In this document: positions 1 through 5,373 of the stretch, piece after piece
Layout: each line of letters begins with the position of its first letter
Numbering within the stretch: position 1 is the stretch's first letter
Assembly: GCA_025774865.1 (NCBI GenBank)
Contig: JALGZO010000180.1
Coordinates: 1-6,505, forward strand
Source of the DNA: a bacterium
GTDB lineage: Bacteria; ARS69
DNA: 6,505 bases
Reading direction: 5' to 3'
The notes under the pieces: model-generated
Told to the model about the DNA's origin: nothing
Database searches by the model: none
Seen by the model: only the letters and a program-made list of their open reading frames with translations
Position numbers and translations under genes: made by a program

Positions 1-770
1 AGCAGGTTCGGATTCGCTTGGAGGACCGCAAGCTGGACGTGAAGCCCTCGGAAATGCGGGCGCGGAGCGAGTCCAGGATCTCGCCGGTGTCGTTCCGAGA
101 GGCCCTCGAGCCGGCGGGAACGTCTCTGATCGCAGAAGCGAAGCGCGCCTCACCGTCGCGGGGGGTGCTGCGCGATCCGTACGATCCAGCGGCGTTGGCC
201 GCCGAGTACGAGGCGGCCGGAGCGCGAGCCGTGTCGGTGTTGACGGAGCCCGACTTCTTCGGCGGTGCCCCTGAGCACCTGGAAGCGGCAAGCCGGGCGA
301 TCGAGTTGCCGGTCCTGCGGAAGGACTTCCTCGTGGATCCGTATCAGTGCTGGGAGGCGAAGGTGTGGGGCGCGTCGGCGGCGCTGCTGATCGTCGCGGC
401 GCTCGACGATGCTCTCCTGCACGACTTGTACGCGCTGCTCGAGGAGATCGGCCTGGACGCGCTCGTCGAGGTGCATGACGAAAAGGAGGCGGAGCGGGCG
501 CTGAACCTGCCGGTATCGATTCTCGGCGTGAACAACCGGGACCTCGCCACTTTCGAGACGGACCGCACGGTCACGGCGCGAATCGGGGCACTCGCGCCCG
601 CCGACGTCAGCCTCGTGTCGGAGAGCGGAATCCACTCGCGCGATCACGTCCTGGAGGTCGAGCGCGCGGGGGCGTGCGCGATTCTCGTGGGGGAGGCGCT
701 GCTCCGGTCGGAACGGCCGGGTGACACGGCCCGCGAGCTCATCGGCGCCGACGCGGAGGGGGCGGCGTGA
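1..770 (+). CDS. trpC: Indole-3-glycerol-phosphate synthase TrpC, 5' end outside the window
   Basis: Cytoplasmic TIM-barrel enzyme that closes the indole ring: CdRP to indole-3-glycerol phosphate plus CO2 and water. The frame is open from base 3. The first possible start inside the window is TTG at 18 (250 residues from there), but the residues before it are also open and the text around it looks like the usual N-terminal helix, so I infer that a few codons lie upstream. Counting from TTG 18, family hallmarks are [11 protein letters not shown] (residues 39-49, catalytic Glu40 and Lys42), [10 protein letters not shown] (101-110, Lys102), LVEVH (149-153, Glu151), NNRDL (172-176), SESGI (201-205, Glu202) and VGEALL (224-229). 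There is no fused TrpF domain. The stop TGA overlaps the GTG start of trpB by four bases, so the two are almost certainly cotranscribed and translationally coupled. The identity is very secure; only the start is uncertain. Confidence 0.97.
755..759 (+). promoter_or_regulatory. Shine-Dalgarno for trpB inside the trpC 3' end
   Basis: GGAGG, followed by more G, lies 7 bases before the GTG at 767. It supports GTG as the trpB start and coupling to trpC termination at the same GTGA overlap. Confidence 0.75.
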
Positions 771-1957
771 CCGGACCCGACCTCCCGAACGCGCGGGGGT
801 ACTTCGGCGAGTACGGAGGTCGTTTCGTTCCCGAGACGATCATGGCCGCGCTCGACGAGCTCGAGCGCGCGGCCGACGCCGCGTTCGCCGAGAGCGAGTT
901 CCGGGACGAGCTCGAGGGTCTATGGCGCGACTACGCGGGTCGACCCACGCCGCTGTTTCACGCCCGTGGGCTCTCGGAGCGTTGCGGCTGTCGGACCTAC
1001 CTCAAACGGGAAGATCTTCTCCACACCGGCGCCCACAAGATCAACAACACGATCGGTCAGGCGCTCTTGACCAAGCGAATGGGGAAGCCGCGCGTGATCG
1101 CCGAGACGGGGGCCGGTCAGCACGGCGTCGCCACGGCGACGGCGGCCGCTCTCTTCGGACTGGAGTGCGTCGTCTACATGGGTGAAGAGGACATGCGGCG
1201 GCAGGAGCCCAACGTCTACCGAATGCGTTTGCTCGGCGCGGAGGTCGTCGGCGTGCACTCGGGCAGCCGCACCCTCAAGGACGCGATCAACGAAGCGATG
1301 CGAGACTGGGTCACGAACGTGCAGAACACGCACTACATCCTCGGCTCGGTGCTCGGCCCGCACCCGTTCCCGCGACTCGTGCGAGATTTTCAGAAGGTGA
1401 TCGGGCGCGAGGCGCGGCGCCAGATTCAGGAGGTCGAAGGGCGGTTGCCCGACCTTCTCGTCGCGTGTGTCGGCGGCGGCTCGAACTCGATCGGTCTCTT
1501 CCACGAGTTCGTCGGCGAACCCAGTGTGCGCCTCGCCGGGGTGGAGGCCGGCGGGCTCGGTCTGGAGCCGGGGAAGCACGCCGCGCGCTTCTCCGGTGGA
1601 AGCCCGGGTGTGCTGCACGGCACCCGGAGCTGGGTTCTGCAGGACGAAGCGGGCCAGATCGCGCCCACCCACAGCGTTTCGGCCGGACTCGACTACCCGT
1701 CGATCGGGCCGGAGCACGCGTGGCTCCACGACCTCGGCCGCGCGGAGTACCACTCGGTCGACGACGAAGAGGCGCTCGAAGCGTTCCGGTTCCTTTCGAA
1801 GTCCGAAGGGATCATTCCCGCTCTCGAGTCGGCCCATGCGGTCGCGTGGCTTCTGCGCGAAGGGCCGAAGATGGACGGCGAGCCCCTCGTCGTCTTGAAT
1901 CTCTCCGGCCGCGGCGACAAGGACCTGCAGCACGCGGCCGAGGAGATCCGCCGGTGA
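767..1957 (+). CDS. trpB: Tryptophan synthase beta chain TrpB
   Basis: PLP enzyme that condenses indole with L-serine to give L-tryptophan. It normally works as an alpha2-beta2 complex with TrpA, which channels indole to it. At 396 residues it has the usual length and appears intact. Visible motifs are the N-terminal [13 protein letters not shown] (residues 11-23), the PLP lysine in HTGAHKINN (86-94, Lys91), the catalytic acid in AETGAGQHG (112-120, Glu113), the phosphate-binding GGGSN (236-240), [13 protein letters not shown] (305-317) and the C-terminal LSGRGDKD (379-386, Ser380). These place it in the standard TrpB1 group rather than TrpB2. The start is GTG, overlapping the trpC stop as GTGA and preceded by GGAGG. 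Its TGA stop in turn overlaps a GTG, where trpA would be expected to begin, but only a 16-codon ORF follows. Either trpA is elsewhere in the genome or this TrpB works without its usual neighbour. Confidence 0.98.
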
Positions 1958-2004
1958 TCCGCCGGTTGACCGAACGCGCGGTTCCACAACCTCCAGATCC
2001 CTAG
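1954..2004 (+). pseudogene. Possible truncated start of trpA (16 codons)
   Basis: GTG at 1954 overlaps the trpB stop as GTGA, exactly as trpB overlaps trpC. It reads [16 protein letters not shown] and ends at TAG 2002-2004. The first nine residues resemble the opening helix of many TrpA proteins (M-x-R-[IL]-x-x-x-F/A), but nothing TrpA-like follows, and no TrpA motif was seen in the 500 bases downstream. I infer a remnant left when trpA was lost. It could equally be a chance short ORF, since the resemblance covers too few residues to be decisive. Confidence 0.35.
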
Positions 2005-2026
2005 TGTTTCCCATTGCGTTGGGTGG

Positions 2027-2151
2027 CCCGGAGCGGCATGAGGCCGGGGACCCCCTCGCCCGCCGTTGCTGCTCGGCTCGCGAAGGGGATTGGTGCTCGC
2101 CTGCGCTGCGCTGACGCGTTCGAGGGGATCCCCGGCCTCACCCCGCTCGGG
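2027..2151 (+). repeat. Structured palindromic element, copy 1
   Basis: A 20-base arm at 2039-2058 pairs with 2121-2140, with one C/A mismatch at 2051. The stem continues outward through a 2x2 internal loop and a one-base bulge (2027-2036 with 2143-2151), making about 30 paired positions. The stem encloses a 62-base core (2059-2120). The core's first 26 bases match the reverse complement of the copy 2 core at 25 positions, and its last 22 bases (2099-2120) match perfectly. The middle (2085-2098) is diverged, and the short inner hairpin seen in copy 2 is largely lost. It lies 22 bases past the 16-codon ORF that follows trpB. It may be a mobile REP-like element, a structured RNA or a transcription barrier; the sequence does not decide between these. 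Confidence 0.85.
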
Positions 2152-2168
2152 CCTCTCGGGATAGAGGC
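2151..2168. repeat. Small hairpin next to copy 1
   Basis: GCCTCT at 2151-2156 pairs perfectly with AGAGGC at 2163-2168 around a six-base loop. It abuts the outer stem of copy 1 directly. There is no T-run after it, so it is a weak terminator candidate at best. Confidence 0.4.
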
Positions 2169-2285
2169 GAGGTTGCGGGCCCGTCCCCGTCGACGTGCGT
2201 CAGCCCTGCTCGCGGTGTCGCGACGATTCGAAGGGGGGTCGGGAGCTCCGTCGCCGGCCGGCTGGCCAAGTTAGGTCTGGCATCC

Positions 2286-2421
2286 GGAGGAGCCGAGCTT
2301 CGCGAGGTGGAGAGGCACCCTCGAACGCGTCAGCGCAGCGCAGGCTCGCTTCGATGTTTCGCGAGCCGAGCAGTAACGGCGGGCGAGGGTGCCTCTCCAC
2401 CTCGTGAAGCTCGGCCTCGCC
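2286..2421 (-). repeat. Structured palindromic element, copy 2 (inverted relative to copy 1)
   Basis: A 31-base arm at 2293-2323 pairs with 2384-2414 along its whole length, the only non-Watson-Crick position being a G-T pair (2302/2405). Weaker pairing continues outward past a bulge at 2291. The 60-base core (2324-2383), read on the minus strand, is nearly the same sequence as the core of copy 1. It contains an inner 7-bp hairpin, GGCTCGC (2343-2349) with GCGAGCC (2361-2367), around an 11-base loop. The outer arms share only short patches with those of copy 1 (GAGG and CCCTCG on the 5' side), yet each is paired within its own copy. It starts about 20 bases beyond the ancestral aceE stop at 2444, on the side where aceE transcription would exit. 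Confidence 0.88.
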
Positions 2422-2443
2422 AGGAGAGTCTCGGGACGGCTCG

Positions 2444-2544
2444 CTAGCGGCGGACCGAAGGCGACGGAGTCTCGACGTCGGGAGCGTGCTTCGAGTTCGT
2501 CTCGAGACCCAGCTCACGACGGGCGCGCGCCACCTCCGCCGCCG
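2444..2544 (-). pseudogene. Displaced C-terminal coding segment of aceE
   Basis: Read on the minus strand in the frame that would apply if only one copy of the 37-base repeat were present, this encodes AAAEVARARRELGL and 19 further residues, ending in SPSVRR and a TAG at 2446-2444. The segment fits the last helix and tail of AceE proteins (E. coli has a comparable KKVVADAIAKFNI). In the sequence as given, the frame shift makes translation stop at 2514, so 2444-2513 is no longer translated and 2514-2544 is read out of frame. Confidence 0.8.
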
Positions 2545-5296: not shown

Positions 5297-5373
5297 GGGC
5301 CCGTAGCTCAGCTGGATAGAGCGTTGGTCTCCGGAACCAAAGGCCGGAGGTTCGAATCCTCTCGGGCCCGCCA
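5297..5373 (+). tRNA. tRNA-Arg, anticodon CCG
   Basis: Full cloverleaf. The acceptor GGGCCCG (5297-5303) pairs perfectly with CGGGCCC (5363-5369), followed by discriminator G and an encoded CCA (5371-5373). The D stem is GCTC/GAGC (5306-5309 and 5319-5322). The anticodon stem is TTGGT/ACCAA (5324-5328 and 5336-5340), with loop CTCCGGA giving anticodon CCG (5331-5333), which reads the Arg codon CGG. The variable loop has five bases. The T stem is GGAGG/CCTCT (5346-5350 and 5358-5362) with loop TTCGAAT. It appears intact and functional. CGG occurs several times in the neighbouring genes, so a dedicated decoder fits the high GC content. No integrase or att-like repeat was seen beside it. Confidence 0.98.

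Follow-up and report, generated by a model that had tools for sequence, protein, structure and literature searches.

The trpB-aceE spacer and the repeat within it

The window, i.e. the whole stretch of 6,505 nucleotides analysed here, contains one copy of a protein-free repeat of about 450-495 bp, which we call family 1, between the convergent genes trpB and aceE. No recognisable protein lies inside this element. Its parts and its two neighbours are arranged as follows:

767-1957, plus strand: trpB (PALP family), convergent, stop codon 43 nt ahead of the element
2001-2447, no strand: whole family-1 element with shortened ends (copy alignment; empty site in genome G004, locus L173)
2001-2027, plus strand: A-end, terminal-inverted-repeat remnant CTAGTGTT and spacer, ∼20 repeat bases absent (copy alignment)
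2028-2151, no strand: hairpin A, outer stem GGAGCGGCATGAGGCCGGGGACC and its partner (inverted repeats, folding, hairpin alignment)
2057-2077, minus strand: hairpin A core arm GCCGAGCAGCAACGGCGGGCG
2099-2121, minus strand: hairpin A core arm GAACGCGTCAGCGCAGCGCAGGC
2152-2291, no strand: middle segment separating the hairpins, 77% identity among copies
2292-2415, no strand: hairpin B, outer stem GCCGAGCTTCGCGAGGTGGAGAGGCACC and its partner (inverted repeats, folding, hairpin alignment)
2323-2345, plus strand: hairpin B core arm GAACGCGTCAGCGCAGCGCAGGC
2365-2385, plus strand: hairpin B core arm GCCGAGCAGTAACGGCGGGCG
2416-2447, minus strand: B-end, terminal repeat mostly deleted; its last CTAG is the source of the aceE stop codon
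2444-5183, minus strand: aceE (pyruvate dehydrogenase E1), convergent

The natural TAG stop of aceE (2446-2444) falls within the right CTAG of the element. The listed aceE reading frame stops at 2514 because it is shifted by an exact 37-bp tandem duplication close to the 3' end of the gene (2545-2618); without one duplication unit the frame should reach the TAG at 2446-2444, and the duplication is either a genuine allele or an assembly error. A tRNA gene (5297-5370, Rfam RF00005) is flanked by aceE and an SBP_bac_5 gene.

The original prediction described positions 2027-2421 as two oppositely oriented copies of a structured element with matching cores, and these copies are real: one inverted repeat joins both hairpins at 2053-2084/2358-2389 (32 nt, 97%), and another does so at 2099-2126/2318-2345 (28 nt, 100%). 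That each core sits inside a long stem was also borne out, with hairpin A pairing 2028-2063 with 2116-2151 (36 nt, 83%) and hairpin B pairing 2292-2328 with 2379-2415 (37 nt, 92%). Each of the two hairpins folds far better than dinucleotide shuffles, with z-scores of -4.2 to -10.7 over the two strands. The predicted limits cover both hairpins but fall short of the full element, which is bounded by CTAG ends. Nor does the single hairpin serve as the unit: most longer copies are composites built on two inverted hairpins, running from one terminal inverted repeat (end repeat) through hairpin B, the middle segment and hairpin A to the other. The consensus family-1 element, compiled by eye from the copies, measures ∼495 bp; its ends carry GTGTTCCGTCTCGAAAGTC, and the end repeat of intact copies is CTAGTGTTCCGTCTCGAAAGTC, inverted at the opposite end. 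In the window copy the greater part of each end repeat is missing, but CTAG persists at 2001-2004 and 2444-2447.

Copies, distribution and insertion sites

Hairpin A, used as a query against the source genome, recovered hairpin B (E = 4e-18) together with more than 25 further matches to dispersed copies (E<1e-8), spread over roughly two dozen other sites. Queries with hairpin A, the full consensus and the end repeats placed whole or broken family-1 copies at ∼27 loci, and since copies frequently terminate contigs in this fragmented MAG (G000; 4.7 Mb, 785 contigs, 93% complete, with signs of strain mixture), all copy counts are lower bounds. The expectation that intergenic copies sharing conserved cores would prove numerous and dispersed was confirmed, and neither a restriction to the two hairpins of the window nor identity with an Rfam, REP or ERIC family emerged. 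Rfam covariance models gave no credible match at either threshold, and no intrinsic terminators (a GC stem followed by a T-run) or promoters were found. At positions ∼345-380 of contig C713 (L002), adjoining a family-1 copy, lies the perfect palindrome CTAGTGTCCCGTCTCGCGACGGGACACTAG, in which two end repeats are abutted without an interior.

Family 1 is absent from four genomes of the same family and 55 others by nucleotide searches, the exact two-core pattern has zero matches in 84,980 species genomes and zero in viral contigs, and the family was not found in plasmid or phage collections. By the exact two-core pattern and nucleotide searches of a few relatives, the element is lineage-restricted.

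Element edges lie at stop codons, mostly no more than ∼10 bases away, and the neighbour's TAG is in many cases part of the edge CTAG; several copies (C235, C381, C729, C703 and C277) show this on both sides. CTAG-type stops make up 12 of 25 (48%) at element edges vs 28 of 268 (10%) elsewhere (p = 1.2e-5). As scored, 13 of the 27 loci lie between convergent genes (one, C515, is doubtful, and most others are cut by a contig end). In the sampled contigs, which were mostly picked for carrying copies and whose genes were called by a simple in-house caller, convergent pairs account for 36 of 277 gene pairs (13%), CTAG occurs at 0.27 per kb of this GC-rich genome, and 40 of 99 CTAG sites are stop codons.

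The closest AceE relative (74% identity) is encoded by the MAG Gemmatimonadota bacterium DHS20C21, apparently of the same species as genome G004. In both, members of a sister genus, trpB and aceE are convergent across a spacer of ∼34 bases with CTAG at the aceE stop (L173 in G004), and this spacer is the probable orthologous empty site. The presence of CTAG at both element ends and at the empty site is compatible with duplication of either TA or CTAG. Partial support for an empty site comes from contig C477, a near-empty allele relative to C60 of the same assembly. Positions 1-120 of C477 (L098) and 1-260 of C60 (L118) are apparently one locus in two strains, a hairpin copy standing against ∼40 bases of end. 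Contigs C122 and C780, which likewise lend partial support, have flanks in common, and a deletion in C122 fuses the two inverted cores.

Conserved cores, drifting stems and further families

In an alignment of 22 hairpins both core arms hardly vary, and base pairs of the outer stem have often changed on both sides: cores are ∼97% identical among copies, and the ∼28-bp stems vary with compensatory changes. Core identity is 0.969 between hairpins A and B, 0.964 among A and 0.971 among B. Stem arms match their own partners better than those of another copy (0.85 vs 0.73 for A, 0.91 vs 0.83 for B). By region, identity is 0.92-0.96 in the cores, 0.81-0.88 in the stems and 0.77 in the middle segment, falling to 68-72% in the terminal repeats and 59-73% in the spacers. 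With terminal repeats so far below the cores, these are not recently transposed copies, and neutral decay at one even rate is no fit. Our chief reason for regarding the core as constrained is this pairing of decayed ends with intact cores; we infer that the constraint is sequence-specific, possibly acting in mRNA 3' ends, and the structured RNA proposed in the original prediction may also hold for the hairpin core. In the inverted pairs inspected (family 1, and C549 and C72 of family 3, described below), the hairpin that each gene reaches first has its core in the same orientation, the exceptions being C42 and tandem family-3 copies. The stems appear to be kept paired through template switching; the best sign of it in this genome is the identical 2-nt indel by which the strain alleles C160 and C313 differ in both arms of the stem.

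Scanned for long inverted repeats, the sampled contigs yielded almost solely family 1, plus two more families of like shape. Family 3 occupies C477 and ∼11 further loci, of which C72 and C549 hold inverted pairs; its core is conserved, and its outer stems pair with themselves yet differ in each copy. A family-3 covariance model (R2) also detects family 1. Because opposite-strand palindrome matches score similarly, we based homology not on R2 but on strand-specific alignment and symmetry-keeping shuffles: the family-3 core aligns with family-1 hairpin B with a score of 60-61 on the same strand and 18-22 on the opposite strand, and this alignment was equalled by 0-1 of 5000 shuffles. By this comparison families 1 and 3 appear to be homologous in the core, strongly so for hairpin B and weakly for hairpin A. 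Across 145 genomes the family-3 model matched just the source genome, plus one marginal match (E = 0.006) in an unrelated genome. Family 2 (C704, C358, C474, C130 and C154) has a like shape; homology was not demonstrated by the alignment and shuffle comparison, and the family-1 terminal repeats were not seen flanking families 2 and 3. Family-2 copies at positions 13060-13325 of C704 (L095) and at L127, L128, L129 and L130 have the core CGCATCAAGGGCCC...GGAGGGCCCAGCGG, partly in tandem. Short repeats of the GTTGACACCGCTGCGGGCGTAC type occur in several spacers near family-2 copies and also at L144.

Proposed origin and possible role of the element

The original prediction also raised a dispersed mobile element; this reading is well supported, but no transposase could be tied to it. 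Among Y1, DDE_Tnp_1 and DDE_3 proteins, no transposase with the element's ends was found in the assembly, from which, at 93% completeness and in 785 contigs, repeats are easily lost. PF01609 (DDE_Tnp_1) gave no match, and no PF01797 (Y1) protein was found in the source genome or four relatives. The sole IS630-type gene (DDE_3, PF13358) was rejected as mobiliser, its ends being unrelated to those of the element. It belongs to an IS630-type insertion sequence at positions 1405-2456 of C702 (L089), with overlapping orfA/orfB and ends like CTGCCTAAATAATGCAATA; beside it are an rve-like ORF and a tyrosine-recombinase-like ORF, judged by eye.

Literature searches returned no published description of the element, which is a new family; MITEs and BIME/REP elements are kinds already known. 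As expected of a MITE, the element is short, non-coding and dispersed (∼450-495 bp, ∼27 loci), and its intact copies are bounded on either side by terminal inverted repeats, which the window copy has in shortened form. IS630 inserts at TA in CTAG, according to the title of Tenzen and Ohtsubo (1991; via PMC2170065). Like MITEs of the IS630/Tc1-mariner group, family 1 is non-coding, with terminal inverted repeats and a probable insertion point at the TA of CTAG; unlike them, it has two large internal hairpins with constrained cores, and no matching IS630 transposase was found. MITEPsy1, a CTAG-target MITE of Pseudomonas syringae compared here by description, is likewise small with terminal inverted repeats, but it measures 100 nt and is tentatively linked to IS5 (PMC3189936). 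Template switching can create and maintain hairpins (PMC8794818); such hairpins, including coding palindromes of Nematomorpha (PMC6649704), share the long near-perfect stems and paired arm changes, whereas the family-1 stems surround a conserved core that dispersed units have in common. Relative to integron attC sites the layout is reversed, the hairpin alignment showing a conserved inner part and a variable stem.

The scattered copies, their ends, the target context, the empty site, the pairing of the stems and the conservation of the cores are all observed, and we consider the element to be probably a lineage-restricted, non-autonomous, MITE-like insertion element with a TA/CTAG target. Counting against this reading are the failure to find a transposase with matching ends, terminal repeats more worn than the cores, and families 2 and 3, around which family-1 terminal repeats were not seen. 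It is very improbable that the element is of REP/BIME type and moved by a REP-associated tyrosine (HUH) transposase reading the imperfect hairpin as single-stranded DNA. CTAG-bearing terminal inverted repeats, present here, are not known as a feature of REPs. The inverted imperfect-hairpin pairs between convergent genes do resemble the REP doublets known as BIMEs and REPINs, which also occupy intergenic spacers (PMC2817692, PMC3116915), but the ∼124-nt units are much longer than REPs, which are palindromes of 20-40 bp (PMC3733652); lineage restriction and terminal repeats further set the element apart, and no RAYT was found, PF01797 being unmatched in this genome and the four relatives.

The opposite emphasis, on retention by the host, is tentative but possible: the hairpins may be putative mRNA 3'-end structures (for termination, end protection or RNase III-type processing) whose internal-loop core binds a protein, so that selection, not mobility, would explain both the conservation and the stem covariation. 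Cores that persist while the middle segment, spacers and ends of the same copies decay, the numerous compensatory pairs, the placement at gene 3' ends and the shared orientation of the core first met by each gene all point this way; the lack of an Rfam match and of a U-tract terminator signature, the reversed orientation of C42 and the tandem family-3 copies, and the absence from other genera of the host's family point away. It is unlikely that recombination and template switching alone, with no selected function, account for the pattern, the core being a recently homogenised segment. The paired indel of C160/C313, the core fusion in C122 and the A-B core likeness, which matches that within A and within B, suit such a by-product; yet gene conversion would have to halt at the core limits across unlinked loci, and template switching should have erased the core mismatches.

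For the MITE-like insertion element, we propose that a transposase acting in trans, of a TA/CTAG-targeting DDE type for which IS630 is the known example, inserted copies at TA within CTAG. Copies would land at gene ends because CTAG is rare in this GC-rich genome and 40% of its sites are at stop codons, and insertion would be nearly harmless because CTAG at both ends gives each convergent gene its TAG stop back. The two inverted hairpins would then evolve concertedly, with replication template switching, suggested by the compensatory stems and the strain-level paired indel, holding the arms complementary as their sequence drifts, while proposed recognition by some factor would keep the core nearly invariant. 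The likeliest place for this role is the mRNA 3' end, the alternative being a recognition site at the DNA level; RNA is favoured because convergent transcripts first meet a hairpin of the same orientation in the inverted pairs read. It is rather doubtful, though conceivable, that these elements make up a novel class of hairpins at gene 3' ends, in which insertions re-creating both convergent stops would give each gene a long hairpin whose core is recognised by protein or RNA, and template switching during replication would keep rewriting the stems, across several families of one genome, at least two of which would be homologous.

The copies constitute a natural series in which a fixed core is set on different matched stems, which makes template switching testable against point-by-point selection and, equally, makes testable what a core held constant at many gene ends does. 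The CTAG-targeting element further shows a route into gene-dense DNA that leaves both neighbours unbroken.
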